Source of the DNA: Prevotella sp. | GTDB lineage: Bacteria > Bacteroidota > Bacteroidia > Bacteroidales > Bacteroidaceae | Assembly: GCA_017524385.1 (NCBI GenBank) | Contig: JAFWSS010000195.1 | Coordinates: forward strand, 1 to 52,228 | DNA length: 52,228 nucleotides | Direction of reading: 5' to 3' | Shown: piece by piece, positions 4,977 through 46,387 of the stretch | How the letters are laid out: each line of letters starts with the position of its first letter | Numbering within the stretch: position 1 is the stretch's first letter | Made by a program: the position numbers and the translations under genes | Notes under the pieces: generated by a model | What the model was told of the DNA's origin: nothing | The model's input: the letters and a program-made list of their open reading frames with translations, nothing else | Database searches by the model: none

Positions 4977-7900
4977 ATGAAAAAAAGTATTTTTCGCAGC
5001 GTCGTGCTTCTCATCTTTGCATGGATGGGAACTGCAGTTCAGGCACAGATACCATCAGGTTATTATGACAGCGCTTCCGGACATACCGGTGCCGAGTTGA
5101 AATCTGCCTTGCACGATATCATCAAGGGACATACCGTTGTCAGTTATTCCGGATTGCTCAATGCCTACGCCTATACAGACTGCCGGGCCAATGGCACCAT
5201 TTGGGATATCTATTCCAACTGTGCGTATTCCATCAATGGAAGTTGCGGTTCATATAAAAAGGAGGGCGACTGTTGGAACCGTGAACACACGTGGCCACAG
5301 AGTTGGTTCAATGAGGTTAGTGGTCCCAAGAGCGACCTCTTCCACGTCTATCCCACAGATGGTTATGTGAATGGCAGACGCTCCAATTATCCGTATGGAG
5401 AAGTGCGCAATCCAACCTATACTTCGGGCAATGGTTCCAAACTCGGTCCCTGTACCACTGCCGGTTTTTCAGGTACGGCATTTGAGCCCATTGATGAGTA
5501 CAAGGGCGACATCGCTCGTAGCTATTTCTATATGAGTGTGCGCTATTATCATGAGGATAGTGGATGGGGAAACAGCGAGATGACCACCAAGTCGGAAATC
5601 AAGCCTTGGGCAATGGCCATGCTTTTGCGTTGGAATGAGGAAGACCCGGTGAGTGACAAGGAAATCGCCCGCAACAATGTCATTTATAAAAAATACCAAC
5701 ACAACCGCAATCCCTTCATCGACCATCCTGAGTATGCACGTATGATATGGGATGAGACCTGGACCGCAGGCGAAGAATACGACATCGCTTTAGACGTTGT
5801 TTCCCATGGCAGTGTGAGTGCACCCGCCAGTGCTGCGGCAGGCACTACTGTTGCCATTACGGTAATACCCGATGAGGGCTATGATTTGGAGACATTGACT
5901 GTTTACAAGACTGGCGACCCCTCTACCACAGTGCCAGTGAACAGCGATGCCACTTTTGTGATGCCCGAATATGACGTGACAGTGAGTGCAACGTTCTTGG
6001 AGAACAACACGTTCTATGCCATCACATTGGAAAATGTGACCAATGGCAGTATAGCAGCCAGCGCAGAAAGTGCGAAGGTGGGCACCACTGTCGAGCTTAC
6101 AGCAATTCCAGACAATGGATATGCCCTTTATAATTGGTATGTGACCAAGGCTGATGGCAGCCAAGCTTCAGTGGCAGTCACCGGCAACACGTTTGTCATG
6201 CCTTCCTGCGATGTCACCGTGACCGCCACCTTTGTTGTTGCCACCGCCGGGGATGGTGATTATGTGAAAGTCACCTCTGCCCCCGAAGACTGGAGTGGGG
6301 AGTACCTCATTGTCTATGAGGATGGCAAGAAAGCCTTCAATGGCGGTTTGACCACACTTGATGCTACATCCAACAACATATCCGTCACCATCAGCGATGA
6401 CAAGATAGAATCGAATTCGACCACCGATGCCGCAACTTTCACCATCGCCAAGTCGGGCAACGGATATACCATTTGTTCTGCCAGTGGTTATTATATCGGT
6501 CAGACCGGTGATGCCAATGGGCTGAATTCTTCCAAATCCACGGCATATGCCAATACCATTTCTCTTTCAGGCGGTGTCGATATCGTTTCGAGTGGAGGCG
6601 CCCATCTGAGATACAATGCATCGAGCGACCAGGAACGTTTCCGTTATTACAAGTCGAGTTCTTATACCGCTCAGAAAGCCATACAACTTTACAAGAAAAC
6701 AGCCACGAGTGCGGCAGTCGTTCCTACTTACACCATCACTTTCAACCCCAATGGTGGTGCCGGAGAAGTCCATACACAGACCGTAGAGGAAAACAATCCT
6801 ACGAATTTGGAAGCCAACACATTCAGTTACGAGAGTCATGTCTTTACTGGTTGGAACACCAAAGACGACGGCACGGGCATGTATTATGCCGACGAGGCGA
6901 CGGTCAGTCTGCATAACGACCTAACTCTTTATGCACAATGGGAGACGTTGTACAACGTTACGGTGAGTGAGAACGAACACGGGGCCATCTCTGTCAGTTC
7001 TCTCTCTGCTACAGAAGGCACCACTGTCACACTGAGTGCTGTCCCTGATGAAGGCTATACTCTCTACCTTTGGAATGTCACAGATGTTGATGGCGTACCC
7101 GTACAAGTTTTTGACGACCAGTTTGACATGCCTGCATGTAATGTCAATGTGAGTGCCACGTTTGTCTATGTGGGACAGTCGGGCGATGCCACCGTCTACC
7201 GTCTCGTCACCTCCACCGACCAGTTGACCGCTGGCGATGTATATCTCATAGCCAACAAGAGTGCGGCAAAAGCGTTGGGAAGTGCCAACAACAACAACCG
7301 CGTAGCAGCAAGTGTAACCATGAATGATGCCAAAGATGTCATTACCGACCGTGGTGAAGCATACGAGTTGGTATTAGGTGGCAGTGAGGGCAAATGGACA
7401 TTTTACGATGATGCCAACCATGGCTATCTCTATGCCGCCAGCAGCAGCAATAATTATTTAAGAACAGAAAGCACCTTGTCCGACAATAGCCGGTGGTCGG
7501 TTGCTGTCACCAATGAGGGTGTCGCCACCATCAAGGCTCAAGGTTCTAATACTCGTAATTTAATCAAGTATAATTCTCAAAACAGCATTTTTTCATGCTA
7601 TGGTTCCGGTCAAAATGATGTCAATCTGTTCGTTCGTGGGAATGAAGTGAATACAAGTGTCATTCTTTCCAACGACGACAGGGGCATGGATGAAGCACAC
7701 ACCAACACTGCACTCATCAATGCCTATGACAATGAGAAAGTGAACGTGGTGCTCTATGGACACACCTTCCATAAGGATGGGAATTGGAACACCCTTGTTC
7801 TTCCCTTCAGTCTTGGCAGTTTGGTCGGCACCCCTCTTGATGGTGCGTCTATCAAGGAACTCACCTCCGCGTCGTATGAAAATGGAACAATAACGTTGAA

Positions 7901-8462
7901 TTTCAGCGATGACCTCGATGCCATCGAGGCTGGCAAACCTTACATTGTGAGATGGGAGGGTACTGGTGAAGTCAGCGACCCGCTATTCAACGGGGTGGTC
8001 ATCAGCAAGAACGGTCCTGTGGATGTGAACAAAGGAATGCTGTCCATGCTGGGCGTCTATACCCCTCTCCGTATTGAAGGTGGCAGGCCCATAGTCTTCT
8101 TAGGAGAAAACAATACACTCTACCATCCTAATGCCGAGCAAACCACCAAGATCAACGCCTTCCATGCATACTTCCAAGTCAACTCCAACCTGGGCGACGT
8201 GAATGGCGACGAAGAGGTCAACGTGACAGATGTGACTTCCCTCGTCAATCATATCCTCGGCAATGACAACGGCAGGTTCATCATTGACAATGCCGACATC
8301 ACAAGCGACGGAGAGGTCACGATAACCGATGTGACGGCATTGGTGAACCTCATCCTGAATGGCAGCTCGAAAATCTCTAACGTGGTGGTCACCGGTGCCG
8401 ACGGTTTCACCTTCGGCGGTGAGGGCAACGGCATTGCATTCAGTCGTGCATACATGAAATAA
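4977..8462 (+). CDS. Secreted endonuclease I with InlB-type repeats and dockerin-like end
   Basis: The 1161-residue product has a signal peptide (cleavage near AQA, residue 23), then an endonuclease I domain (~25-260) with NREHTWPQSWF (101-111), SDLFHVYPTDG (119-129) and NRNPFIDHPE (243-252), which carry the His and metal-binding residues of the family. After it come two divergent Bacteroidetes repeat domains (~270-345 and ~347-425), a globular domain (~428-575), a Listeria-Bacteroides InlB repeat (~580-655, ending LTLYAQW), another repeat domain, and a second copy of the globular domain (~735-890). Near the end are two EF-hand-like dockerin segments, GDVNGDEEVNVTDV and ADITSDGEVTITDV. It probably cuts extracellular nucleic acid at the cell surface. 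The family is normally ~250-350 residues, so most of the protein is adhesion or display modules. Confidence 0.88.
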   Translation: MKKSIFRSVVLLIFAWMGTAVQAQIPSGYYDSASGHTGAELKSALHDIIKGHTVVSYSGLLNAYAYTDCRANGTIWDIYSNCAYSINGSCGSYKKEGDCWNREHTWPQSWFNEVSGPKSDLFHVYPTDGYVNGRRSNYPYGEVRNPTYTSGNGSKLGPCTTAGFSGTAFEPIDEYKGDIARSYFYMSVRYYHEDSGWGNSEMTTKSEIKPWAMAMLLRWNEEDPVSDKEIARNNVIYKKYQHNRNPFIDHPEYARMIWDETWTAGEEYDIALDVVSHGSVSAPASAAAGTTVAITVIPDEGYDLETLTVYKTGDPSTTVPVNSDATFVMPEYDVTVSATFLENNTFYAITLENVTNGSIAASAESAKVGTTVELTAIPDNGYALYNWYVTKADGSQASVAVTGNTFVMPSCDVTVTATFVVATAGDGDYVKVTSAPEDWSGEYLIVYEDGKKAFNGGLTTLDATSNNISVTISDDKIESNSTTDAATFTIAKSGNGYTICSASGYYIGQTGDANGLNSSKSTAYANTISLSGGVDIVSSGGAHLRYNASSDQERFRYYKSSSYTAQKAIQLYKKTATSAAVVPTYTITFNPNGGAGEVHTQTVEENNPTNLEANTFSYESHVFTGWNTKDDGTGMYYADEATVSLHNDLTLYAQWETLYNVTVSENEHGAISVSSLSATEGTTVTLSAVPDEGYTLYLWNVTDVDGVPVQVFDDQFDMPACNVNVSATFVYVGQSGDATVYRLVTSTDQLTAGDVYLIANKSAAKALGSANNNNRVAASVTMNDAKDVITDRGEAYELVLGGSEGKWTFYDDANHGYLYAASSSNNYLRTESTLSDNSRWSVAVTNEGVATIKAQGSNTRNLIKYNSQNSIFSCYGSGQNDVNLFVRGNEVNTSVILSNDDRGMDEAHTNTALINAYDNEKVNVVLYGHTFHKDGNWNTLVLPFSLGSLVGTPLDGASIKELTSASYENGTITLNFSDDLDAIEAGKPYIVRWEGTGEVSDPLFNGVVISKNGPVDVNKGMLSMLGVYTPLRIEGGRPIVFLGENNTLYHPNAEQTTKINAFHAYFQVNSNLGDVNGDEEVNVTDVTSLVNHILGNDNGRFIIDNADITSDGEVTITDVTALVNLILNGSSKISNVVVTGADGFTFGGEGNGIAFSRAYMK

Positions 8463-12281: not shown

Positions 12282-12312
12282 TTGGTTGAATGAAATGTTT
12301 TTCCTATTTTTG
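12282..12312 (+). promoter_or_regulatory. Promoter of aguA
   Basis: TTGG (12282-12285), a 19-base spacer and TATTTTTG (12305-12312) precede ATG 12335 by 22 bases. It lies back to back with the L,D-transpeptidase promoter. Confidence 0.65.
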
Positions 12313-12334
12313 TAACTCAAATGCAAGCATCTCA

Positions 12335-13360
12335 ATGGACCACCTGTATTTCCCTGCTGAATGGGAGCACCAGCGGTGCATCCAACTGACGTGGCCCCAT
12401 GCCGGCACCGACTGGGCAGACTGTCTGACGGACATCACAAAGACGTTCGTCGAACTGTCGTCCGTCATCACTCGGCATGAGGCCTTGTTGGTTGTCACTC
12501 CCGACCCGGCCTCCACCCATTCCACCCTGGCGTCACGTCTGTCGCCGGAAGCCCTCCGTCGCGTCACCTTCTTCCAGTGTGCCACCAACGACACATGGGC
12601 GCGAGACCATGGCGCCCTCACCCTTCTGCCTGTTGCCGGCAGCACCGCCAGCCCTCGGCTGCTCGACTTCCGCTTCAACGGCTGGGGAGAGAAGTTCCCC
12701 TCTGCGCTCGACAACGCCATCAACCGCCATCTCTCGCAATCCGGCATCCTTGGCCCTCTTGACGACCATGACGACTTCGTGCTTGAAGGCGGCTCCGTGG
12801 AGAGCGACGGTGCAGGCACGGTTTTCACGACGAGCATGTGCCTGTTGTCGCCTCACCGCAACGACCTTGACCGCGAAGGTCTGGAACGCGAGTTGAAACG
12901 TCGCCTGCATGCCGCCCGCGTGGTGTGGCTCGACCATGGCAGCCTGATAGGCGACGACACCGACGGGCACATCGACACCATCGTGCGCTGCGCCCCCGGC
13001 GACACCCTGCTGCATGTGTGCAGCGACGACCCTTCCGATGCGCAACATGCCGACTTCCAAGCCCTCGAGCGCCAACTGCACGAGTTGCGCACCCTCGACG
13101 GACGCCCCTATCGGTTTCTCCCTCTCCCCATGCCTCACGCCATCATGGAAGACGGAGAGCGCCTGCCTGCCACATATGCCAACTTCCTCATTCTCAACGG
13201 TGCCGTCGTTGTTCCGACCTATGACCAGCCCGACAACGACGCCCAGGCCTGCGAGACCATCGGCAGTGCGTTCCCAGGCCGCGAGGTGGTGCCTTTGGAC
13301 GCCCGGACAATCATCCGCCAGCATGGCTCCATCCACTGTCTGACAATGCAGTATTATTGA
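12335..13360 (+). CDS. aguA: Agmatine deiminase
   Basis: The 341-residue enzyme converts agmatine to N-carbamoylputrescine and ammonia in polyamine synthesis. Family features: YFPAEWEHQRCIQLTWPH at the N-terminus, NDTWARDHGALT (substrate-binding Asp), LEGGSVESDG, DHGSLIGDDTDGHID with the catalytic Asp/His pair, and the nucleophilic Cys in HGSIHCLTMQYY at the very C-terminus. ATG 12335 (MDHLYFPAEW) is chosen because it matches the family's length and follows the promoter closely; an upstream frame extension to 12290 would start inside the promoter. The next gene, aguB, begins 17 bases after the stop and catalyses the next step. Confidence 0.95.
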   Translation: MDHLYFPAEWEHQRCIQLTWPHAGTDWADCLTDITKTFVELSSVITRHEALLVVTPDPASTHSTLASRLSPEALRRVTFFQCATNDTWARDHGALTLLPVAGSTASPRLLDFRFNGWGEKFPSALDNAINRHLSQSGILGPLDDHDDFVLEGGSVESDGAGTVFTTSMCLLSPHRNDLDREGLERELKRRLHAARVVWLDHGSLIGDDTDGHIDTIVRCAPGDTLLHVCSDDPSDAQHADFQALERQLHELRTLDGRPYRFLPLPMPHAIMEDGERLPATYANFLILNGAVVVPTYDQPDNDAQACETIGSAFPGREVVPLDARTIIRQHGSIHCLTMQYY

Positions 13361-34600: not shown

Positions 34601-34978
34601 TCAATATTTCCGGAATTTCCACTGCCGCTGCCCTTTGCTGAGCACTATTTTGTCATTGGAGAGAGCTTCGATTCTCAGGCGAATGTCGCCGAAGGGTTGG
34701 AATCCGAAGGACTTTTCCACGATGGCGGTGTCCGACGGCACGCCATAGATGGAGAGGCATTGTATGAAAAGGCTGTCGCCTACATGCTGGAACTTTCCAT
34801 ACACCTCGCCCTCCGAGATGGAGCGGAACAAGGTCAGCGACCCCGAGAAACTCACATATTTCGTGTCTGAGTCCGCCAAACGCCACTGACCGAACAAGTC
34901 GCCCGCCTCGCCACCTTCCTGGCAAGAAACCAAGAGGAGGAGGGAGAGGGCTATGATGGTATTAAAGAATCTTGCCAT
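34601..34978 (-). CDS. Small lipoprotein, lipocalin-like
   Basis: The 125-residue product has a lipoprotein signal (IIALSLLLLVSCQEGG, Cys ~19) and a short beta-rich body beginning LFGQWRLADSDTKYVSFSG and ending IVLSKGQRQWKFRKY, resembling the small lipocalin-like domains common in Bacteroidetes. The start overlaps the end of the Wzi-like gene by 17 bases, so they are translated together. No specific function can be given. Confidence 0.8.
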   Translation of the reverse strand: MARFFNTIIALSLLLLVSCQEGGEAGDLFGQWRLADSDTKYVSFSGSLTLFRSISEGEVYGKFQHVGDSLFIQCLSIYGVPSDTAIVEKSFGFQPFGDIRLRIEALSNDKIVLSKGQRQWKFRKY

Positions 34979-36506
34979 GGAAACCGACTTTTAAGTTGAA
35001 CGTGTGACAATCGCCGTAGATGTTCCCCTTGTCGAACGCATAAGCGGCGGCAAAGCGCCATGGGCCGAGGTCATAGACCCCTTGCACCATGGCATCGAAG
35101 GAGTGATGCTTGACGGGGAGCGGTGCGGAGTAGGTGCCCCATCCCTCACGATAAGACCCTTTGACGAGATAGGACAGGTGGTTGGCTATCTCGCCATCGA
35201 CCCCCAGGTGCCACGCCTTCACGCGGTTGTCGCGGAACGACATCAACCCGTCGTTGTTGTATATGGGTGAGGTGATGAGCGCATTGCCCGGCGTCATGCC
35301 ATAGTGTGAATAGGCAACATAGAACATATGGTTGTAGTAGTTGTCGTTGCCGACGACGAAATCATCCACTTGGCTGCGCACAGGCTCAGGGTAGTCGCCA
35401 CTATCCCAATGGAGGGGTCCCGACTGGTTGGTGGTCTGGAAATACTCCACCACAGCCTTCCTCACCAGCTGCCGTCCAGCCCTCTTGTTGTCGTATTGCA
35501 GCCCCCACAACCCGTCCCAGCCGTTGCCTTTTCGTATGCCGGAGCCATCCTCGAACGGGTTGTCGAGATAAGCCTGGAGGAGATGATCATTGTCGATGTT
35601 CCAACCCACCTGCAGGGTCATTGAACCAAGATGGTTGCCAAAGACCCAGTCTTCCAACACGTCGTTCTCATAGTAATTCTTGTCACCAAAGGATGCGATG
35701 ACATCAAAGAAAGATTTTGGTTTCACAGGCTTCTTGGATGCCACCAACTCCCCGTTCACGGTTTTATACCCCGTGCCGCCAAACTGCACTGCATGTTCCA
35801 CGCCGGCGACGACAAAGAAGCGTTTGGCTGGGTTGGTGCGGAAATACAGATGCTTCTGATGGGCATAGGCACCGGTGGCATACCCCCAGTTGACGCCGCC
35901 TCCCCGACGGAACGCCTCCTCACGATAACCGCTGTCGGTGAACTTGCCATAGCCGAAGTCGAAATGCGCCTGCAGCCATCCCTTCGTGAACGGTATGGTC
36001 CAGAACCCGTTGGTTCCGACATGCACCTTTGGCACCGGTTTGGCGTTGATGCCGTTGGCGAACAAACCGGAAGACAGTTGCTCATCGCGCAACGCCGTCT
36101 TCTCCTCACGACTTCCAACCTCTATGAAAAACGCCTTGTAAGCCAGGTTGGCATAGCACTGTTGCAAGAAGGTGTGATGGTCTGCGTGAACGGAAGCGAT
36201 GGCATCCACAGCAGCCGTGAGAGAGAGGTTGCTCGTGAACGGATGGTCCACTTTCACTGCGCCACGCACATAGGCCGTGTTGGAACGTGTGCCCAACACA
36301 TGGTGGCGGTTGGTGACCAACTGGAATGCCGTGAAATCGCCCGTCCCCACCGCCGTCTCGGCAGCGAGGTCGTAGGTGATGCTGGTTGCCAGCGTGTCCT
36401 CACATGGTGTGTCCAGCGCAGTCATTGGCACGAGATTGCCTTGTGCTTGGCAAGGAAGGGCAAGCAAGAGGCAGGAGGCAAGCCCCAAGAAAAACTGCAT
36501 CCTCAT
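34962..36506 (-). CDS. Wzi-like capsule assembly / outer-membrane barrel protein
   Basis: The 514-residue protein has a signal peptide (LGLASCLLLALPCQAQ) and an alternating beta-strand pattern with many aromatic residues, ending in HTFNLKVGFHGKIL. It resembles Bacteroidetes Wzi-family proteins: LGSMTLQVGWNIDNDHLLQAY, WDGLWGLQYD, NQSGPLHWDS, GNDNYYNHMFYVAYSHYGM, ISPIYNNDGLMSFRDNRVKAWHLG. Wzi is an outer-membrane lectin that anchors capsule to the surface. No capsule cluster is seen in the window. It lies 37 bases behind the RyR/FGE gene on the same strand, so it may share the kinase operon's transcript, or may have a promoter in the short gap. Confidence 0.8.
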   Translation of the reverse strand: MRMQFFLGLASCLLLALPCQAQGNLVPMTALDTPCEDTLATSITYDLAAETAVGTGDFTAFQLVTNRHHVLGTRSNTAYVRGAVKVDHPFTSNLSLTAAVDAIASVHADHHTFLQQCYANLAYKAFFIEVGSREEKTALRDEQLSSGLFANGINAKPVPKVHVGTNGFWTIPFTKGWLQAHFDFGYGKFTDSGYREEAFRRGGGVNWGYATGAYAHQKHLYFRTNPAKRFFVVAGVEHAVQFGGTGYKTVNGELVASKKPVKPKSFFDVIASFGDKNYYENDVLEDWVFGNHLGSMTLQVGWNIDNDHLLQAYLDNPFEDGSGIRKGNGWDGLWGLQYDNKRAGRQLVRKAVVEYFQTTNQSGPLHWDSGDYPEPVRSQVDDFVVGNDNYYNHMFYVAYSHYGMTPGNALITSPIYNNDGLMSFRDNRVKAWHLGVDGEIANHLSYLVKGSYREGWGTYSAPLPVKHHSFDAMVQGVYDLGPWRFAAAYAFDKGNIYGDCHTFNLKVGFHGKIL

Positions 36507-36543: not shown

Positions 36544-39500
36544 TTAACTCTTGATAATATTGTCAGCCTGGTTGTTTTTCCTTGCTTCCATCATTGCTTC
36601 ATATTCAGCGTATGCTTCCACACTTAGCACAAGCCTGAAACCGATATCGTTTCCTTTATGGTCTAGCGGCCAGTCGCAGCAATTGGTGACCCTGCATTCA
36701 CCGGGTGCAGACCTCCAACTCCCCCCCTTGAGGATTTTTGTACAGTCTTCAGCCCACCAGTCCTTGCACCATTCCCACACATTGCCGCACATGTCGTATA
36801 ATTTGTTTTCGTTAGGTTCCTTACCTTTGACAGGATTGGTGCATTTAGTGATTCCGTTGTGCCACGCCACCGCATCGGGGCCTTTTTCTTTTGAAATAGT
36901 CCCGCTATAGATGGGATATCCATCAGTGTCATTGGTGTTTTCGCCGCCCCCCTTGGCTGCGAATTCCCATTGTGACTCCGTAGGCAGGCAGAAGAGTTTG
37001 TCTTCACTCAATAGAGACTGGAATTCTTTTCTGAAAAACTCATTGATTTTCTCAATAAAGGCCAAGGCATCGTCATAGGACACCTTTTCCACAGGCAAGT
37101 CACGCCCTTTGTGCTCAGAGGGATTGTATCCCATGAATGCATTCCATTGCCTTTGTGTCAATGGTGCTTCTGCCATCCAGAATGCAGACATCTCTATGAT
37201 GTTGGAGAAGGCGTTTCTTTCCCTGGGAGTTGTTGTGATGGTGTTGGTGCCGTCAAACAAGGTCTTTTCGCCCACGCCCATGCGGAATTGTCCACTCTCA
37301 ATCTTTCGCAACTGTTTCAATATCTGGTAGAAGATCCTGTATTTTTCCGTTTCTTGCTCTTTCACCTCGGAATCGTCTTTCTCAAAAGAATAAGGGAGCA
37401 TCAGCCTGAATCCCAGGTCGGCAGATTTGTAATCCAAATGCCAATGGCGGCTCCATCGTCCCTCCGCATTAGAAAGGTCACATTCCTTTTTGCTAAACTT
37501 CCAACTTCCGCCCAAGAAAAAGAAGGTGTCGCCCAATCGGTCGGCAGCGGTGCGCGACCATTCCCATACATTTCCAAGCATGTCGAACAACCCGAAATCA
37601 TTTTTCTCTTTTTGACACACTTCGTGCGTCCCATTGGCATGTCTGTCATGATACCATGCTTGTCTTTCTATCACGCCATTGTCTTGGTAAAAAGAAGCGG
37701 GATGCCCGGCAAGTGCGGCATAAAGCCATTCTTCTTTGCTTGGGAGCGAGAAATGCAATCCCGTCCTGTCATACAAGATGACAAGGAAGTCTTCAATGTT
37801 TTCTTTCGACACCATTTCCACCGGGCGCTCCTTGCCTTTGTATTGCGAGGGATTGTTCTTGGCGCCCATCACCTCTTCCCACAGCCCTTGTGTCACAGGA
37901 TAAGCACCCATCCATATGGCCTGCATTTTCTTGTTACCTTTCGGACGATTTTCGTCATCGTTGTTGTCTTTTGTCCTAACCAATTTTCCGGCAGGGATGC
38001 ACACCATGTCACGGATGTATTCGTATGTCTTTCTCCATTCCCTTTTCTTGTTGTCTTTGACAGGCGCCAAAATCTTTCTGCATCTTATCTCGCTCTCTCT
38101 TCTGTGAAACCTAAGCCTGAGCAGGTTGCGTATGATGCGGCTGTCGTTCATCAAAGTCTTGTCCACCATGGCCAACGTTTCATAGGAGCAGATGTCGAGG
38201 TGGGCACGTTTCTTCCTTTTGAGATATTCTTTCCTGATTTTCCTTTTCTTGTCATCATCCAGATTGAGGAAATAAGCCATCTCGTCATCGTATAGAGGGC
38301 GATATCCCAAAGTCAGCCTTTCTGTAAGCCATCTGTTATGCTCCGCTTTTGACAACAGAAGTATCATTTCGTCATTGTTGAGTGCCGTGTTGCATTCTTC
38401 ATTTGAAGAAAAGACAGAAAGGCCAGCCGACCTTAGTTTGGAGGAGAAACTATCTATCAAGTTGATGTTCGACATCTTGTTTACAATTCCCTCTTCCGAC
38501 CATAATTCGTTGATATAGTTGATGAAGAAGTCGATGTTGCCTTTGCTGTATTGCAAGTTGCCTTTCATATATGTGGCGAGGGCGAGTTTTGCCAGGATGT
38601 TGTCAAACATGGTTTCCTTGTAGCAATCCTCCTGCATGCCGAAAGGTTTCAGTTTCTCATATCGTTTCCATTCAGTCTCGCCAGTTGCCACTTTTTGTGT
38701 CAGGTCGAAACTGTTCTGCTGATAGACAAGCACTTGAAGCACCTTTTTCATGATGCTCTCTGGAAAATACAAAGCCATGGCAATCGACTTGGCCGGATTG
38801 TTCAAGCATACCGCCACCGTGCATGTCTTCTTGCCATCGTTCACGCAATCTTCCATATAGTCCAGTATCTCTTTCGAGGCCACATTGCCTTCTATGAACT
38901 CCCATTGAATATCCATGAAGTTCCCTCCACTTCCGAGGTGATGGTAGGGTGAGTTTTCGTCACACATGGGGTCGATGTCCTCGTCATTCTCCTCTTCCCA
39001 TCTTTTTATCCTCTCTCCCTTCTTGCATTTGAGGGTTCTGTGCCGGCATAATGCAAAAAGTGCGGAGAAACGCTCTTCAAGGAATTCTCCCTCTCGTGTT
39101 GCTTGCTCATCGATGAAGGTGATGGTTGTGCGGCATCCTTTCGTGTGATAGTTGGGAAGGTGTATCAACAATGCCGCTTGCAGAGCCAAGGCCGTGCCCA
39201 TCTGGTTCATGCCCACGACGAACAAATGTACGGACATGTCGCTGTCGCATGATATTCCAACATATCTGTTGGTTTGTTCATCCTTGTAGCAGTCCAAGGG
39301 AAGGTATCTTTGTACAGAAGACTCGTCAACCCTGTTGCCAGGGATGATGGCATAGTTGTCCACCAGCACTTTCTTGGCCCAAATCTCATGGATGTTGAAA
39401 GGTAGGAACTCCACGTCTTCATTGAGTTTCTTGTAGATATGTGTCGATTTGAATATCGTGTATGTGCTTTGGTATTCAAAATTCACATGGCACCTGAGTT

Positions 39501-40326
39501 TCTGCCCAATCCAGCACTTTTTCTTCTTTTTTGGCAGTTTCTCGCAATAGCGTGAGATCAGTTCCAAGCATTTCATGCTGTATGAGTCATGATCCTGCTC
39601 GTCCTTGTCGCTCATGTCTTCTCCAAGAATGTAGACTTCCTTCGCCCTTTCAAGTTCCAGGTCCTTGATATCCTCATATATGGTTCTGTCTCCGAAATAA
39701 AAGACCACCTTTTCCTCGTCTATCCTGTTTAGTTTCAGTTCCAACTTGAACCTTTCCTTCTCGACTTCGTTTTTCGTCTGTATCAGGACATATTTCACAT
39801 CAGGCCTTCGCAACGACTTTTTTGCGATGGTGGCAGCCTGTTCGTTCACTCCGATGATTACAATATAGTCTTTGAAGAAAAAGCGGTTGTACCAGTTGTT
39901 GTTGTAGCGTATGAGTCCATTCCTCCATTTCTCGGCTCTCCGTGAATTGTAACTCACAAGTGATGAGACAAACAGCCCAGAAAGGCAGAAAATGCCTCCA
40001 AAAGCACATAAGGCAGCGATGATGGCGCCTTTGGTGTTGGCAAGTGGAATGTTTCCCGGGTCTGCAAATTGGCAGATGATGGCCCACCAAAGATTGCTTT
40101 CGTGTTGACTGCTGTTGTTGATGATGTCTTCTGCCTTGATGGAAAAGATTTCAGAAATGAATATGAAAGCCACGACAAACAAGATGGTGTATATGATGGG
40201 CTGTATATACCATTTCCCGTCAGCTCGATAGATGTTCCTATGACGCTCGACAGGAAACAAGATGGCTTTTCCAAACTGTTCCGCTTTCCTTTTGGCTGTA
40301 TTAAGGATGTCTTGCTTGTTGAGCAT
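36544..40326 (-). CDS. Membrane protein: two Rossmann-like domains, RyR domain, two FGE/SUMF1-like domains
   Basis: The 1260-residue protein has two N-terminal membrane helices (~42-62 and ~100-124). A Rossmann/TrkA-N-like domain begins at FKDYIVIIGVNEQAATIAKKSL (~151), and a second at VHLFVVGMNQMGTALALQAAL (~366). A RyR-type signature AEHNRWLTERLTLGYRP lies at 661-677. Two FGE/SUMF1-like domains follow: ~770-980 (WMGAYPVTQGLWEEVMG, FDMLGNVWEWS, GGSWKF) and ~1005-1235 (FWMAEAPLTQRQWNAFMG, YDMCGNVWEWC, GGSWRS, DIGFRLVL). Neither copy keeps the first of the two Cys needed for formylglycine formation, so they are probably binding modules. The shape suggests a membrane sensor or effector gated by nucleotide or ion state and by kinases encoded 13 bases upstream. 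No precise function is known. Confidence 0.85.
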   Translation of the reverse strand: MLNKQDILNTAKRKAEQFGKAILFPVERHRNIYRADGKWYIQPIIYTILFVVAFIFISEIFSIKAEDIINNSSQHESNLWWAIICQFADPGNIPLANTKGAIIAALCAFGGIFCLSGLFVSSLVSYNSRRAEKWRNGLIRYNNNWYNRFFFKDYIVIIGVNEQAATIAKKSLRRPDVKYVLIQTKNEVEKERFKLELKLNRIDEEKVVFYFGDRTIYEDIKDLELERAKEVYILGEDMSDKDEQDHDSYSMKCLELISRYCEKLPKKKKKCWIGQKLRCHVNFEYQSTYTIFKSTHIYKKLNEDVEFLPFNIHEIWAKKVLVDNYAIIPGNRVDESSVQRYLPLDCYKDEQTNRYVGISCDSDMSVHLFVVGMNQMGTALALQAALLIHLPNYHTKGCRTTITFIDEQATREGEFLEERFSALFALCRHRTLKCKKGERIKRWEEENDEDIDPMCDENSPYHHLGSGGNFMDIQWEFIEGNVASKEILDYMEDCVNDGKKTCTVAVCLNNPAKSIAMALYFPESIMKKVLQVLVYQQNSFDLTQKVATGETEWKRYEKLKPFGMQEDCYKETMFDNILAKLALATYMKGNLQYSKGNIDFFINYINELWSEEGIVNKMSNINLIDSFSSKLRSAGLSVFSSNEECNTALNNDEMILLLSKAEHNRWLTERLTLGYRPLYDDEMAYFLNLDDDKKRKIRKEYLKRKKRAHLDICSYETLAMVDKTLMNDSRIIRNLLRLRFHRRESEIRCRKILAPVKDNKKREWRKTYEYIRDMVCIPAGKLVRTKDNNDDENRPKGNKKMQAIWMGAYPVTQGLWEEVMGAKNNPSQYKGKERPVEMVSKENIEDFLVILYDRTGLHFSLPSKEEWLYAALAGHPASFYQDNGVIERQAWYHDRHANGTHEVCQKEKNDFGLFDMLGNVWEWSRTAADRLGDTFFFLGGSWKFSKKECDLSNAEGRWSRHWHLDYKSADLGFRLMLPYSFEKDDSEVKEQETEKYRIFYQILKQLRKIESGQFRMGVGEKTLFDGTNTITTTPRERNAFSNIIEMSAFWMAEAPLTQRQWNAFMGYNPSEHKGRDLPVEKVSYDDALAFIEKINEFFRKEFQSLLSEDKLFCLPTESQWEFAAKGGGENTNDTDGYPIYSGTISKEKGPDAVAWHNGITKCTNPVKGKEPNENKLYDMCGNVWEWCKDWWAEDCTKILKGGSWRSAPGECRVTNCCDWPLDHKGNDIGFRLVLSVEAYAEYEAMMEARKNNQADNIIKS

Positions 40327-40339
40327 GGTCTGTTGGTTG

Positions 40340-42829
40340 TTATTGGTTGTAATTGAGCATATAGATTCCTATGGTTTCCAAAATCAGGAACCCCCAGGTG
40401 ATGCAAGAATGCAAGAATTTACTTTTCATTCCTACGCAAAGGAAGATGAGCACGGCGCCACATACCCATAAAAGAGCGAGGGTGCCAATGGCTGGATAAT
40501 GGTATTCAGGGTTGAACCAGGTCCATGCCCACCACAGCAAGGGGTAGAGGACCTGAAGGAAAAATCCGATCACCGTCATGCATCCGGGGGTGTCGTCATC
40601 CTTTTCTTTCAGCCCCTCCAACTTCTTCTTGGCGAATTCACTTCCTTGTGCCGCAGCTTTTTCATACCAAGTTTGTGCCTGGCTTAAATCTTTTTCCACG
40701 CCTTCGCCGAGTTCCAGCATCGACGCAAGACTGAGCATGGCTTGGGTATCTCCTTTCTTCGCCGCCGTTCCAAACCATTTGAATGCTTCGGAAAGGTTCT
40801 TCGGTTTGCCATTGCGTCCCATGTAGTAGTCCTTTCCCAATTCGCACATCTGGCTTGGTGTCATCCCTGCTCCTTCCACGTAGTTGCTTGGCTTGGGCTC
40901 GCTTTTCTTGTTGCCCAGTTTCAGTTCCTTGAGTCTTTTCTTCGCCTCTTCGTCACCTTGTGCAGTTGCTTTTTCATACCAGTAGCGGGCGTGTGACAGG
41001 TTCTTTTTCGTTCCAAAGCCGTTCTCATACATCTGGGCAAGAAGGTATTGCCCGTAAGCATTTCCTTTCTTGGCAGACTTTTCATACCATTCCAGGGCTT
41101 TCGCGTAGTCTTTTTTCACGCCATAGCCATGCTGGTACATCAGTCCGAGATTATACTGTCCGGAAGCATTTCCTTGTTCGGCTGCCAGTTGGAACCATTT
41201 TACTGCTTCATTATAGTCCTTTGTCACGCCAAAGGCGTTCTTATACATGTTGCCAAGATTGTTCTGTGCTACGGCATTCCCTTTCTCCGCGGCTTTACGA
41301 TACCACTTTATGGCCTCTGCATAGTTGGTTTTCTTTCCTTTCCGTCCATAGAAGTAATCGTTTCCCAACTCGTTCATCTGCGATGAAGTCAGCCTCGCTT
41401 CGTTCTCGTCGCTGCCTTGCCTGGGCACGTCGATTTGGAGAAGTTCCTGAAGTTTCTTCTTGGCTTCTTTCCCTCCTTGGTCGGCAGCCTTCTTGTACCA
41501 AAAACGTGCCATGGCCAGGTTCTTTTCCATGCCCAAACCGTTTTCATACATCTGTGCAAGATGGAATTGTGAATTGGCATGTCCTCGTTTTGCCGCTTTC
41601 TTATACCATTCTGCCGCTCCTTCTAAATCAACCTCCGTACCTTCGCCCCTTTCATACATCCGGGCAAGTTGGAATTGCGCATTAAGATGCTCTTCTTCTG
41701 CCGCCATTGAATACCATTTCAAGGCTTCTGCGTAGTTCTTCTTCTTGCCTTTCCAACCATAATAGTAATTATTTCCCAAATCGTTCTTTTGTTGCGATGT
41801 AAGCCCCGCTCCATTCTCTTTCTTGCCTGGTTTGGACTCGTCTTTCTTTTCCAGAGGTTTGTTTCCCTGGTTCTGAACCTTGGGGGCGTCTTTCTTTCTT
41901 GCTTCCTGCTTTGCAGGTTTGGTCTCCCACTTGCAGACTTCCCCCATGAAAGCGGCGACAGACTGGAATCTGTCTTTCTTGGTAGGCATCATGGCCTTTG
42001 CGATGCTGACAGCGAGCCCGTCGCTGACACCACGTACCTGCAACTCATAGAGTGGGAAGCCATCGTTGAGGATGTCGGAAGCATACGGGGGTGTCATTCC
42101 AGTGAGCATTTTGTACAGGGTGCCTCCCAGAGCATAGACATCCATGGTGACAGGGAAATCCTTGGCATTGCCTTTCTTGAATTGGATTTGCTCGATGGGA
42201 GCATATCCCGGCGTGCCTCCTCCCACCGTGGTGCTTGTCTCTGGTTTACCATTTTCATCGTATTGCTTGGAAAGGCCGAAGTCGATCAAGACGGCATCCC
42301 TTTTCTCACGCATCATGACGTTGCCAGGCTTGAGGTCGAGGTGCAGCATTTGCTTGTCGTGCATGAAGGAGAGAGCCTCACCTATTTGCTTCGCTATCCT
42401 GATGGCCTCGTTGGTGTCGAGCCTTCCCTTTTCATTGATGTAGTCTTCAAGACTTCCGCCGCCGATGAACTCCATGGAAAAATAGACGGTGTTGTTGGCA
42501 GGGAAGGCTTCCAGCACATTGATGATGTGCTTGTGCTGTAATTTACCCAAGTTCTGAGCCTCTTGGATGAATTTCTCCCTGTATTTGACGAAGTTCTTAA
42601 TGTTGCTGCCGCAGATCACTGTTGTGCCATCGCTGCCTCGGTTGTTGATTTCATGCATGAAGAATTCCTTGATGGCCACCTTCATATTGGTATCGATGGC
42701 CCCCAGTCCCCCGGCAATTTTCACCGATGCGAGGTAAGTGATGCCAAAACCTCCTTGTCCCAGTTTCTTGACAATCTTGTATTGGAATTTCTCTCCCTTG
42801 AGTATCGTGCCTTCTGGTAGTGCGCTCAT
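40340..42829 (-). CDS. Ser/Thr protein kinase with Sel1 repeats and C-terminal membrane helices
   Basis: The 829-residue protein has a complete eukaryote-like kinase domain (~1-300): GQGGFG loop (25-30), Lys54 in VAIKEFF, HLDLKPGN (Asp165), DFG (183-185) and GYAPIEQ for the APE segment. A charged linker (~304-345) is followed by about nine Sel1/TPR-like repeats (~350-735) in three blocks, each opening with a LGNDYFYGRKGKKTNYAEA-like variant. The tail has 3 hydrophobic helices (FFLQVLYPLLWWAWTWF, LALLWVCGAVLIFLCVG, WGFLILETIGIYML). The kinase faces the cytoplasm. It is 22 bases downstream of the dual-kinase gene and 13 bases upstream of the RyR/FGE gene. The kinase domain closely resembles the second domain of the neighbour, so they come from a duplication. 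Confidence 0.9.
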   Translation of the reverse strand: MSALPEGTILKGEKFQYKIVKKLGQGGFGITYLASVKIAGGLGAIDTNMKVAIKEFFMHEINNRGSDGTTVICGSNIKNFVKYREKFIQEAQNLGKLQHKHIINVLEAFPANNTVYFSMEFIGGGSLEDYINEKGRLDTNEAIRIAKQIGEALSFMHDKQMLHLDLKPGNVMMREKRDAVLIDFGLSKQYDENGKPETSTTVGGGTPGYAPIEQIQFKKGNAKDFPVTMDVYALGGTLYKMLTGMTPPYASDILNDGFPLYELQVRGVSDGLAVSIAKAMMPTKKDRFQSVAAFMGEVCKWETKPAKQEARKKDAPKVQNQGNKPLEKKDESKPGKKENGAGLTSQQKNDLGNNYYYGWKGKKKNYAEALKWYSMAAEEEHLNAQFQLARMYERGEGTEVDLEGAAEWYKKAAKRGHANSQFHLAQMYENGLGMEKNLAMARFWYKKAADQGGKEAKKKLQELLQIDVPRQGSDENEARLTSSQMNELGNDYFYGRKGKKTNYAEAIKWYRKAAEKGNAVAQNNLGNMYKNAFGVTKDYNEAVKWFQLAAEQGNASGQYNLGLMYQHGYGVKKDYAKALEWYEKSAKKGNAYGQYLLAQMYENGFGTKKNLSHARYWYEKATAQGDEEAKKRLKELKLGNKKSEPKPSNYVEGAGMTPSQMCELGKDYYMGRNGKPKNLSEAFKWFGTAAKKGDTQAMLSLASMLELGEGVEKDLSQAQTWYEKAAAQGSEFAKKKLEGLKEKDDDTPGCMTVIGFFLQVLYPLLWWAWTWFNPEYHYPAIGTLALLWVCGAVLIFLCVGMKSKFLHSCITWGFLILETIGIYMLNYNQ

Positions 42830-42852
42830 GGCTTGAATAATTTTGGATGTTC

Positions 42853-44709
42853 TTATCGTCTTCTTGCCGGCAATGCTCTCAATGCCTTCATGAAGGCATC
42901 GATGGTGGGATATCGGTCCTTCTTTCTTGGCTCCATGGCCTTGGCGATGACTCGGGTGAGAGCTTTGCTCACGTGCCGCCTTTCAAACTCCTCGTAGGGA
43001 AAGCCTTCGTTGAGGATGAAGGATGAGTCAGGGGGTGAAGTGGAGAGGAGCATCTTGTACATTGTCGCCCCCAAGGCATAGACATCTATCGTCACTGGGA
43101 AGTTGCTGTCTTCTTTGCGATAGTGCATCTGTTCGATGGGGGCGTAGCCTGGTGTGCCAAGTCCCAGAGGCGTACTTGTCTCCGGTACGCCGTTCTTCAG
43201 GTATTGCTTGGAGAGCCCGAAGTCGATGAGTACATATTCGCCGCTCTTCCTGCGCATGATGTTCTTGGGCTTCAAGTCGAGATGGAGCATCCTCTTCGAA
43301 TGCATGAAGGAGACGGCCTTTCCTATTTCAAGGGTGGTCTGCACCGCCTCCTCTTCTGTGAAGGTGTGCAGCTTGATGTAGTCGTCGAGGCTGCCACCGT
43401 CGATATATTCCATGGAATAATATACGGTGTTGTTGGCCTTGAAAGACTCTATCACATTGATGATAGAGTTGTCTGTCATCTTCGACAAGTTGATGGCCTC
43501 TTTCTCGAATTTCTTCATATACCCCTCGTGCAAGTCACCGCTGCCACTGGTGACGGTGGTGTTGTCACTGCCACGGCCGTTGGTGTTTTTCATGAAAAAC
43601 TCCTTGATGCAGACGGAGATGTTGGCATCGATGGCGCCGAGTGGGCCAGCCAACTTGACGGAGGCGAGGTAGGTGATGCCGAATCCGCCTTGACCCAGCA
43701 CTTTCTGGATGGTGTAGATGTAGACGGGGCCTTTCAACTCGGTGCCGATGGGGAGGGAGTTGACAAACTTCTCTTCCTCCTGCCCGCCCATGCTGATGAC
43801 TTCCACCTCAAGGTCGTCGTCGTCATAGTCTATGGCGCACTCTCCAATAGCCTCTATGAACTCGGAAGCGGTCTGGTAACGGTTCTTATAGTGGGGTTGC
43901 ATCGCTTTCTCTATCACAGCAATGGTGGATTCGGATACACCGTGATTGAGCAAATCATCCTTGGGCAATCCGTCTTCTAAAATGGCTCCAGGACCGGGTG
44001 GTGTTGAGCCAGTTAGCAGATTATATAGGGTTGCCCCCAAAGCATAGATGTCTATCTGAGGTGAGAACTTTTCCACTTTCTCTGCTATTTGTTCAAAGGG
44101 TGCATAATGTTGGGTGTAGCAGTCCATTGGCGGCGAGTAGGAGGATGTATAGCATTCGTTCATAATATATTGTTTGGCTATGCCGAAGTCGATGAGGATG
44201 GGCATGTCATCTTTTCGGCGCACTAAGATGTTGGATGGTTTCACGTCAAAATGGTTGATATGACGATGATGGAGATAATCTATTGCCTCCGCCACCCTGG
44301 AAACATAGCGTAAGGCTGTCTGCTCTGGCAGTGCACCATCTCGAGAGACAATATCCCTAAGGCTCATTCCCTCGATGTATTCCATCACATGATACTCCGT
44401 GCCATTCTCTATAAAACTTTCAATTAATTTGATGATGCCAGGATGGTCTAACTGGGTGATAATTTGTGCTTCCTTTGAAAAACACCGACTGTATGATTCT
44501 ACTATGCTAGAATCGATTATAGAACAAACCATTGAGCTTTCGTCTCGCACGCATAAATCACGCAAAAAAAACTCCTTGATGACAACATATTTTTTAAAAT
44601 AAACATGCTCCGCCAAATAAGTGATGTTGAAAGTACTTTGCCCCAACCCCTTGATGATGCGGTATTTCCCTCTTTGAAGGGTCGTGCCTATTTTTAATTC
44701 ATTTGCCAT
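42853..44709 (-). CDS. Protein with two tandem Ser/Thr kinase domains
   Basis: The 618-residue protein holds two kinase domains joined by an acidic linker (~293-304, DYDDDDLEVEVI). Domain 1 (~15-290) has an altered glycine loop (GLGQSTFNIT), Lys45, HFDVKPSN (Asp155; Phe replaces the usual Arg) and DFG (174-176). Domain 2 (~325-615) has an intact GQGGFG loop (339-344), Lys369, HLDLKPKN (Asp478) and DFG (496-498), and is strikingly like the kinase domain of the next gene. No membrane helix is seen. Domain 1 may be regulatory or weakly active, domain 2 looks active; both keep Lys, Asp and DFG. ATG 44709 (MANELKIG) is preferred over an in-frame TTG at 44715. The stop of the kinase remnant lies 6 bases upstream. 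Confidence 0.9.
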   Translation of the reverse strand: MANELKIGTTLQRGKYRIIKGLGQSTFNITYLAEHVYFKKYVVIKEFFLRDLCVRDESSMVCSIIDSSIVESYSRCFSKEAQIITQLDHPGIIKLIESFIENGTEYHVMEYIEGMSLRDIVSRDGALPEQTALRYVSRVAEAIDYLHHRHINHFDVKPSNILVRRKDDMPILIDFGIAKQYIMNECYTSSYSPPMDCYTQHYAPFEQIAEKVEKFSPQIDIYALGATLYNLLTGSTPPGPGAILEDGLPKDDLLNHGVSESTIAVIEKAMQPHYKNRYQTASEFIEAIGECAIDYDDDDLEVEVISMGGQEEEKFVNSLPIGTELKGPVYIYTIQKVLGQGGFGITYLASVKLAGPLGAIDANISVCIKEFFMKNTNGRGSDNTTVTSGSGDLHEGYMKKFEKEAINLSKMTDNSIINVIESFKANNTVYYSMEYIDGGSLDDYIKLHTFTEEEAVQTTLEIGKAVSFMHSKRMLHLDLKPKNIMRRKSGEYVLIDFGLSKQYLKNGVPETSTPLGLGTPGYAPIEQMHYRKEDSNFPVTIDVYALGATMYKMLLSTSPPDSSFILNEGFPYEEFERRHVSKALTRVIAKAMEPRKKDRYPTIDAFMKALRALPARRR

Positions 44710-44715
44710 AATCAA

Positions 44716-44805
44716 TTATTGATGTGATTCTTCTTCATCGTCATCATCCATATCGTATTCTTCAATAGCTTTTATGAACTCGGAAACTATCTGGTAATTT
44801 TCAAC
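44716..44805 (-). pseudogene. C-terminal remnant of another kinase gene
   Basis: The last ~29 codons before TAA 44716-44718 read YQIVSEFIKAIEEYDMDDDD. They match the end of kinase domain 1 of the next gene (YQTASEFIEAIGECAIDYDDDD). The match fades near base 44805, just short of the stop codon of the AAA-ATPase gene at 44825. The rest of the kinase gene is missing. It was evidently the first gene of the operon, with a 6-base gap to the dual-kinase ATG. Confidence 0.75.
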
Positions 44806-44824
44806 AGACAATCGTTTGCACTTC

Positions 44825-46387
44825 TTATTGTTGGACGACCACCCATTCCTCGATGGTGCGCGTCTTTGTCGAGAACGACAGACCGATCTTGTGCAACCGA
44901 CGCTCGTCATAACTGAAGGGTATCATGTAACCCTTCTCGTCAATCTGCTGCAACGCTTTCCGAGCCGGCTGGTCCATTTTCAGTTCAATGACATAAATGT
45001 CGGTGCGCGACTGCCACACGGCGTCGATGCGTCCCGTGGCCGTCCTCACCTCCGTCAGCAGGTAGCGGCCCATGAGCGAGAGCACCACGTAGAGCAACTG
45101 ACGGAAATGCCCCTCGGTGTTCGCTCCCTCGGCATAGGGGATGGAGGCGAGGAACGCCTTCAGGCGCTCCAGCATCTCCTCCAGGTCGTCATTGCGCAGG
45201 GCGCGATACATGTCGACGATGCTGTTGCTGGTGGTCAGCGTGTCGTCCCAGACGTAGTACGGCACAAGGGCATCCATCACGCCTTGATAAACCTCGTTGT
45301 TGGGATACCCCAGGGTGTAGGTGTCGGTGTCGCGGTCGTAATCCTTGATGGTGAGGTAGCCGCTCTGATAAAACAACGGCAGCACGCTCTTCATCTGCTC
45401 CGTGGGTGCGTCAAACTCGACAGAACGGGCAAAGCTGCCATCCAACCGTGTGATGTCGGTGCCGAATTTCTTGAGCATGTTGACCAACACCGTGGGCGTA
45501 CCCGTCTCAAACCAATGGGCTTGCAAATCCCTATCGACAAGGGCGTTGAGCAGGCTGAATGGATTATACACATCCGTCTTGTCCTTGGCGAAGTGGTAGC
45601 CGTCGTATTTCTCCTTCAGCAGGCGGTAGGCCTCCTCCGTGGTGATGCCCATGTCGGCGGCCATGTCGGCCACGGCCTCTCCCCACTGCTCATGCAGTTC
45701 CCTTTCGGTGATGCCGCAAATGGTGGAATACTCCGGCACCATCGTGATGCGCTTCAGGTTGTTCAGTTCGCTGAAGATGCTGAGTTGCGAGAACTTGGAG
45801 ATGCCGGTGATGAAGACGAAGCGCAGCCACTGGTCGCAGTCCTTCAGCGGTGCATAAAACGCCCGCAAGGCCAGGCGCATCTCCTCAAGCCGCTCCGGCT
45901 GGTGCATCACGCTGAGCAGTGGTGCGTCGTATTCGTCGATGAGCACCACCACCTTCTTGCCGTATTTCTCGGCACAGCCGGTGATGAGGCGTTCCAATCG
46001 GTCGCCTGGTGCGTCATCCTTTCGTTCCAAGCCATATTTCTTCTCCAACCGCTCCAACTTGGTGCCTAACCGGAGGTTCATATATTCCACGCCACCGTCC
46101 TTCGCCGATGCCAGGCTGATGTCGAGCACGGGATATTGTTCCCATTCCGTCTCCAGACGGCCGGCCTCCAGACCCTCGAACAAGTCGCGGCGACCTTCGA
46201 AGTAACTCTTCATCGTCGAGAGCAGCAGCGACTTCCCGAAACGGCGCGGGCGGCTGAGAAACACGAACTGAAACTGCTGGGCAAGACGGTAGACGTAGCC
46301 TGTCTTGTCGGCATACATATAACCGCCTTCGCGAATCTTCTCGAAGGTCTGTATGCCGATGGGATATTTGAACTTGCTGATTGTCAT
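44825..46387 (-). CDS. AAA-ATPase-like / PD-(D/E)XK nuclease family protein
   Basis: The 520-residue protein belongs to the widespread Bacteroidetes AAA-ATPase-like (PF09820) plus PDDEXK_9 family. The N-terminus has KYPIGIQTFEKIREGGYMYADKTGYV, then Walker A-like RPRRFGKSLLLSTM and Walker B VVLIDEYDAPL, and the C-terminal nuclease core RIDAVWQSRTDIYVIELKMD. These genes are mobile-looking and often in many copies per genome; their natural role is unresolved. Base composition is more G/C-rich than the kinase genes next to it. It sits where the upstream part of a kinase gene is missing. Confidence 0.92.
   Translation of the reverse strand: MTISKFKYPIGIQTFEKIREGGYMYADKTGYVYRLAQQFQFVFLSRPRRFGKSLLLSTMKSYFEGRRDLFEGLEAGRLETEWEQYPVLDISLASAKDGGVEYMNLRLGTKLERLEKKYGLERKDDAPGDRLERLITGCAEKYGKKVVVLIDEYDAPLLSVMHQPERLEEMRLALRAFYAPLKDCDQWLRFVFITGISKFSQLSIFSELNNLKRITMVPEYSTICGITERELHEQWGEAVADMAADMGITTEEAYRLLKEKYDGYHFAKDKTDVYNPFSLLNALVDRDLQAHWFETGTPTVLVNMLKKFGTDITRLDGSFARSVEFDAPTEQMKSVLPLFYQSGYLTIKDYDRDTDTYTLGYPNNEVYQGVMDALVPYYVWDDTLTTSNSIVDMYRALRNDDLEEMLERLKAFLASIPYAEGANTEGHFRQLLYVVLSLMGRYLLTEVRTATGRIDAVWQSRTDIYVIELKMDQPARKALQQIDEKGYMIPFSYDERRLHKIGLSFSTKTRTIEEWVVVQQ

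Follow-up and report, generated by a model that had tools for sequence, protein, structure and literature searches.

Three adjacent genes on the minus strand of a Prevotella sp. contig encode two kinases and a membrane protein, CH, which is predicted to be an ion channel. The stretch analysed, referred to as the window, is 52,228 nucleotides long (GCA_017524385.1, contig JAFWSS010000195.1, positions 1 to 52,228 of the forward strand). The best reading, at a probability of about 0.6, is that CH is a nucleotide-gated RCK cation channel which responds through a RyR-fold domain, is controlled by kinases and FGE-like domains, and belongs to a conflict-type network. The kinases are named K1 (double kinase) and K2 (kinase-Sel1).

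42853..44709, minus strand: K1, 618 amino acids (aa), tandem Ser/Thr kinase domains at about residues 14-292 and 331-613, with catalytic motifs in both
40340..42829, minus strand: K2, 829 aa, Ser/Thr kinase at about residues 16-317, nine Sel1 repeats and a hydrophobic C-terminus with at least two transmembrane (TM) segments
36544..40326, minus strand: CH, 1260 aa, predicted ion channel gated by RCK domains, with one RyR-fold and two FGE-like domains

K1 starts at the ATG at 44709; an alternative in-frame TTG at 44715 would give 620 aa. The original prediction, an earlier note made on this DNA from its letters, described three minus-strand genes with gaps of 22 and 13 bases. The genes and the second gap (40327-40339, between K2 and CH) are as described, and the first gap (42830-42852, between K1 and K2) is in fact 23 bases. 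The three-gene arrangement is far beyond chance.

Predicted pore, RCK ring and RyR-fold domain of CH

CH is very probably an RCK ion channel, as judged from its model and its fold matches; conduction and the ion carried are predicted. The parts of the protein are listed below.

40147..40218, minus strand: TM1, residues 37-60 (AF2 model, hydropathy)
40042..40092, minus strand: pore helix and filter, residues 79-95, FADPGNIP; Asp89 in 48/54 relatives
39922..40026, minus strand: TM2, residues 101-135 (AF2 model, hydropathy)
39337..39873, minus strand: RCK1, about residues 152-330 (profile, model and fold searches)
38632..39234, minus strand: RCK2, about residues 365-565 (model and fold searches)
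38107..38403, minus strand: RyR-fold domain, about residues 642-740; H663, W666, H709 and D728
37372..38016, minus strand: FGE-like domain 1, about residues 771-985
36628..37302, minus strand: FGE-like domain 2, residues 1009-1233

Relatives of CH were gathered from 301 family genomes, genome contigs (8 loci), 395 phylum genomes and 393 order genomes. The channel of one locus (L055, a 34% match) was lost in open reading frame picking, leaving 59 of 60 loci. Conservation counts and the tree are based on 54 of these 59 channels, the five shorter than 600 aa having been left out.

Hydropathy places two TM regions in CH at residues 38-69 and 98-126, and in a single-sequence search residues 46-116 weakly matched the Kv1.3 pore (E 0.007). 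A profile search of the PDB with 36 sequences, covering residues 1-770, returned the gating rings of DMI1 and CASTOR on top (2.9e-6 and 5.6e-5), followed by GsuK and, at weaker values, by Slo2.2-type channels and MthK. The AF2 model of CH (pLDDT 86.4, pTM 0.83) contains TM1 (37-60), a pore helix (79-88), the filter, TM2 (101-135) and two RCK domains. GsuK is the top match to this model in Foldseek, ahead of CASTOR, Slo and MthK, and also in VIA, where KtrA, DMI1, MthK, CASTOR and TrkA lie within about one Z unit. The Pfam family Slo-like_RCK stays below its cut-off in CH; 23 of 36 family rows match it when E values up to 1 are allowed. The 2-TM protein with two Rossmann-like domains of the original prediction is therefore borne out, the Rossmann-like domains being tandem RCK domains by profile and fold searches. 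Its suggestion that the protein may gate stands in so far as CH is modelled as an RCK channel; the pore itself had been overlooked.

The filter of CH reads FADPGN rather than the TVGYG type of canonical potassium channels. Among the 54 relatives the Asp is kept in 48, the Pro in 37, the Gly in 38 and the Asn in 29; several read DSNA in place of DPGN, and in some the motif is gone. Among the proteins found in the phylum genomes are plain 2TM-RCK proteins whose filters are related, such as DPGTMGGD and DPGYLGDDEG. In the text available from PMC6697748, the CASTOR filter is given as AD265S(A)GNHA and the D265N change abolishes current. CH retains the A, D, G and N of this filter, with P for S/A and no His. 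The absence of the filter Asp from six of the 54 relatives and the DSNA variants would suit a pore-less scaffold, in which the TM pair would do no more than anchor an RCK-RyR-FGE sensor, with the kinases as the true output. The shuffling of sensor parts described below, in fusions of TIR with FGE and in kinase genes that lie beside FGE genes, would suit it also. Such a scaffold is nevertheless improbable, as the pore helix and FADPGN are intact in CH, residues 81-100 are modelled at a mean pLDDT of 87-90 and most relatives keep Asp89.

The genome of the window encodes a second channel (G000:C77:6203-8296, L049). It has no FGE tail, no kinase match on its contig and no counterpart of the Gly-Asn of DPGN in its filter.

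Behind the RCK ring, residues 642-740 carry an E-H-x-R-W ... H-x-D ... D pattern that is nearly invariant in the channel family. H663, W666 and H709 are each kept in 53 of the 54 channels and D728 in all 54. The curated cut-off of PF02026 (27.4 bits) is not reached by CH, which scores 13.1 bits and does so at another stretch; the domain is therefore called RyR-fold and not a PF02026 member. With the limit relaxed to E 1, PF02026 matches 7 of 36 family rows. The best of these (1.2e-33) is an extra domain in one relative (L048:443-2953), a channel with a canonical N-terminal RyR domain in addition to the divergent C-terminal one.

Compared with RyR profiles, a 16-row set scored low (probability 3.8%, E 0.011) and gave no PDB match at E up to 5. 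When 54 rows were aligned by hhalign to seven separate RyR-type neighbours, the probability was 88.8% at a pairwise E of 2.5e-6, and the H, W, H and D residues fell in register. Only the deeper set gave this value, so alignment depth decides the result. In a PDB profile search of the domain, the first five of six rows were RyR proteins, at E 0.04 to 0.19. The domain modelled alone (pLDDT 87) returned RyR structures in the first 38 Foldseek rows (best E 0.53), and VIA scored it at 7.4 against a RyR protein of B. thetaiotaomicron and at 4.5 against the best other fold. The VIA rows for the whole channel span residues 35-669 and hence barely test the RyR part. Each test is modest alone, and jointly they make the RyR-fold assignment convincing. 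The RyR signature reported in the original prediction is thus real by the structure matches of the lone domain, though Pfam gives no score there, and both the Rossmann and the RyR fold, which structural models were to look for, have been found.

Phage RyR-domain proteins have been described to cleave or bind 2'/3'cADPR (cyclic ADP-ribose), with H75, W78, H100 and D117 as contacts (preprint PMC13232231). In the same source, catalysis by the phage protein RyDEP is assigned to its His-Asp pair; eight phage homologues were tested, of which six showed binding and none cleavage. The animal RyR Repeat12 binds AMP-PCP and ADP (PMC12627627, seen in part). H663, W666, H709 and D728 of CH align with the cADPR-contacting residues of RyDEP. 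The H-W spacing is +3 in both and the H709-D728 spacing is +19 against +17, while the H-H spacing is 46 against 25 due to a helical insert between W666 and H709. By analogy with the RyDEP pocket and with the ligands of Repeat12, an adenine nucleotide or ADP-ribose would be a suitable ligand for CH, and binding of an adenine-type nucleotide by its RyR domain is considered likely. The domain could bind or, less likely, cleave such a ligand, given the catalytic pair of RyDEP and the tested homologues that bind without cleaving.

Separate RyR proteins near channels mostly keep the RyDEP spacings (H-W 3, H-H 25 and H-D 17 in that of L040). Across the channel loci, 22 of 30 RyR domains keep the H..W..H..D residues and the other eight have Ser or Thr in place of the second His. 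Two loci (L042 and L047) hold one of each kind in tandem, resembling a pair of active and inactive repeats.

FGE-like tail and kinases

The two FGE-like domains of the original prediction are both found in CH by Pfam, as two stretches of FGE-sulfatase (2.2e-53). The fusion occurs in six channels, the window's included, which form one clade with a support of 100. True FGE enzymes have a catalytic Cys pair in the pattern GGS..C....C. The first catalytic Cys is absent from both copies in CH, which read GGSWKFSKKEC and GGSWRSAPGEC, and from this a binding role appears likelier for them. FGS domains have been proposed as intracellular sensors of invaders (PMC8195603, in the parts available). Diversification of the tail by a diversity-generating retroelement was considered and dropped, as no template repeat is present in the genome's own assembly. 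Its matches to the FGE tail span only 40-43 bases, in the region of the WEWC motif, and its two reverse transcriptase matches sit on contigs other than the window's.

In K1, Pfam finds two Pkinase stretches (1.4e-68), in agreement with the double kinase first proposed. In K2 it finds one Pkinase stretch (7.4e-39) and nine Sel1 stretches (1e-79), and hydropathy adds C-terminal TM regions at 750-768 and 777-806; the earlier description of a kinase with about nine Sel1 repeats and membrane helices is matched by both methods. The VxIK, HxDxKxxN and DFG motifs are found in all three kinase domains. Retention of the lysine and of the other two motifs suggests that these domains are probably active.

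The PADLOC matches of the kinases are broad, covering 36 families for K1 and 37 for K2, and were dropped as generic rather than taken as the sign of a known defence system. The NCBIfam MADS6 scores of 191 and 102 are far below the 460-bit cut-off; the partner genes of MADS and PD-T4-6 were not searched for.

Directly upstream of K1, at 44716-44824 on the minus strand, is an open stretch without a start of its own, which ends in SEFIKAIEEYDMDDDDEEESHQ-stop and is similar to the last part of the first kinase domain of K1 (phmmer E 0.0017 among 282 sequences). It is perhaps the remnant of another kinase gene, truncated by the AAA-ATPase_like/PDDEXK_9 gene at 44825-46387.

On the other side, 37 bases past CH, the gene of a 514-aa protein (34962-36506, minus strand) has a signal-like N-terminus and no Pfam match. 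This secreted-protein gene could share a transcript with CH. A lipocalin-like gene overlaps it (both lie within 34601-36506, minus strand) and may be on the same transcript. Further away, the window encodes a Porphyromonas-type peptidyl-arginine deiminase (12290-13360) and an endonuclease I protein that carries InlB-type repeats together with a dockerin (4977-8462).

Genomic partners of the channel family

Neighbour statistics were compiled for 50 channel loci in 47 genomes. Four more genomes in which channels were matched (G011, G042, G1050, G1068) and eight named contig loci were left out, and weaker family-genome matches were not fetched. Many of the genomes are fragmented drafts, unequally related and with rounded sizes; the loci are not fully independent, and the Poisson values presume an even spread of genes and ignore gene clustering. 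TIR_2 (127 matches in total) lies within 10 kb at 21 of the 50 loci, where 0.9 are expected, and within 5 kb at 18 (0.5 expected); a TIR overlapping the channel reading frame of G070 was not counted. Separate RyR domains (PF02026, 60 matches in total) lie within 10 kb at 24 of the 50, against 0.4 expected. A Pkinase match is found within 10 kb at five loci including the window (0.8 expected). The regular partners of the channel family are RyR- and TIR-domain proteins more than kinases.

The window's contig has neither a TIR_2 nor a PF02026 match, while on other contigs of the same genome TIR is matched three times and PF02026 once. On the 54-row tree, a quick one (LG+G4, SH-aLRT only, long-branch warnings for L061, L152 and L154, TIR and RyR labels set by hand), the TIR label requires at least 14 changes for 17 positives; the TIR association is consequently not one inherited block. 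The catalytic Glu is present in 15 of 31 TIR-like genes under a strict pattern.

Pfam searches of 20 selected neighbours recovered fusions of TIR with FGE (L067, L153) and with Sel1 (L064, L073), of a kinase with AAA (L064, L071), and an nSTAND1 protein (L061). PrsW, M48 and a RyR protein with a sub-threshold C39-peptidase match were also found. The parts of the channel loci appear interchangeable, and the kinase-Sel1 protein K2 fits this pattern with a kinase in the place of the TIR. At L071:5753-7030, a TIR protein adjoining an FGE-fused channel matches prok_STING below threshold (24.1 of 27.1 bits). A small gene, read as sigma-factor-like (one copy tested had no Pfam match), and a RyR-containing partner form a recurrent pair, which lies in the channel gene run at 7 of 59 loci (L048, L054, L058, L062, L067, L139 and L147).

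The original prediction treated the two kinases and the membrane protein as a set that might travel together. This was not upheld by the neighbourhood survey, and kinases as fixed partners across the channel family are rejected at five loci in 50. Among the six FGE-fused channels, an adjacent kinase gene is found only in the window and L071; the upstream side of L069 ends at a contig edge. K1 and K2 might then be chance neighbours, drawn from a large kinase expansion in the genome and functionally unlinked to CH. The assembly (listed at 99.9% completeness and 6.56% contamination) holds 32 Pkinase matches, with K2-like kinases at several further sites, and kinases lie within 10 kb at just 4 of the 49 other channel loci. 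That figure is still a mild excess (0.65 expected, P 0.004), and the three genes share one strand with gaps of only 23 and 13 bases. In the same genome, at locus L156, a K2-like kinase gene is followed after 40 bases by an FGE gene with a near-threshold EAD11 match. Chance neighbourhood is on these grounds somewhat unlikely, and whether the kinases act on CH is an evenly balanced question.

The distribution of the channel is patchy: with a limit of E 1e-30 it occurs in 22 of 393 order genomes, and with one of 1e-10 in 19 of 395 phylum genomes, where the matches beyond the own genome are partial. No match to CH was found in plasmid records. A channel fragment lies at the edge of L162 (MT836850.1, 7396-8478), an unannotated Bacteriophage sp. 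record from human faeces that may be bacterial (26% identity, E 1e-18, 43% of the query).

Patchiness and the strong excess of TIR neighbours, spread over the tree, both weigh against a housekeeping osmotic or metabolic channel, in which the RyR domain would sense ATP, ADP or AMP to adjust ion balance, the kinases would be ordinary stress regulators and there would be no conflict role. This explanation is rather unlikely. It would agree with the nearest structural match, GsuK, having been solved with ADP and with NAD (PDB entry titles), with the nucleotides bound by Repeat12 (PMC12627627), and with the ten further window proteins scanned, which are mostly housekeeping or secreted enzymes.

In the preferred reading of a nucleotide-gated channel, CH would be a two-TM RCK cation channel, probably a tetramer, with its RyR-fold domain on the cytoplasmic gating ring providing a pocket for an adenine nucleotide or ADP-ribose. 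Ligand in this pocket would open or close the pore. The FGE-like domains, of C-type-lectin fold, would serve in the cytoplasm for sensing or docking. K1 and K2, whose genes directly precede CH and are probably co-transcribed with it, may phosphorylate the channel and in this way tune or trigger it, K2 being held at the membrane by its predicted C-terminal helices. CH would then be an ion-flux effector or a signal amplifier. As TIR neighbours are common elsewhere in the family, the channels look like the part of a stress or phage-conflict network that acts by ion flux; a role in defence or abortive infection is put forward tentatively. A more speculative and rather doubtful proposal is a bacterial TIR-to-RyR-channel pathway. 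Here a TIR-made messenger of the ADP-ribose type, bound at the RyR domain, would open a CASTOR-like cation channel, as a counterpart and perhaps forerunner of cADPR-controlled calcium channels, and in the window's branch FGE sensors and kinases would have replaced or joined the trigger.

The action of cADPR-type signals on the RyR domain of the animal ryanodine receptor has been left to future studies (PMC13232231, in the parts available). This question could be approached in a simple system, a compact bacterial channel that has a single RyR-fold domain with a conserved pocket and belongs to a family with TIR neighbours. If the preferred reading is true, ion channels with RyR receptors would join the candidate effectors of nucleotide-based bacterial immunity, and the kinase and FGE genes of these bacteria would be tied to a concrete output.

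Comparison with known systems

The plant nuclear Ca2+ channels CASTOR/POLLUX/DMI1 and the RCK channels GsuK and MthK have the same pore TM pair and tandem RCK ring as CH. The filter of CH resembles the CASTOR kind in its Asp-x-Gly-Asn, with DPGN and not D(S/A)GNHA. Unlike these channels, CH adds a RyR-fold and two FGE-like domains, and its conduction is predicted. The RyR fold, with its H-x-x-W ... H ... D residues, is that of animal RyR Repeat12, B. thetaiotaomicron 3nrt and phage RyDEP. The domain of CH is divergent, bears a helical insert and lies behind an RCK ring, whereas RyDEP stands alone as an enzyme or sponge.

Thoeris combines a TIR-made ADP-ribose-type signal with an effector, and many members of the channel family adjoin TIR proteins. 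Five of eight scanned TIR neighbours weakly match the PADLOC models of ThsB; the window differs in having no TIR on its contig. No PADLOC family matches CH, the L046 channel or the separate RyR protein of L040. In the FGS, EAD and STAND conflict systems (PMC8195603, PMC7159879) the FGE-like domain is a presumed invader sensor, and kinase, TIR and nSTAND genes occur in channel-related loci as well. The body of CH is instead a channel, and the available portions of these two papers contain no RyR or RCK channel. Among the matches listed from the open-licence PMC literature, no description of a bacterial RCK-RyR channel or of a TIR-RyR-channel locus was found. The parts of CH and its neighbours are of known kinds, and their combination appears to be new.

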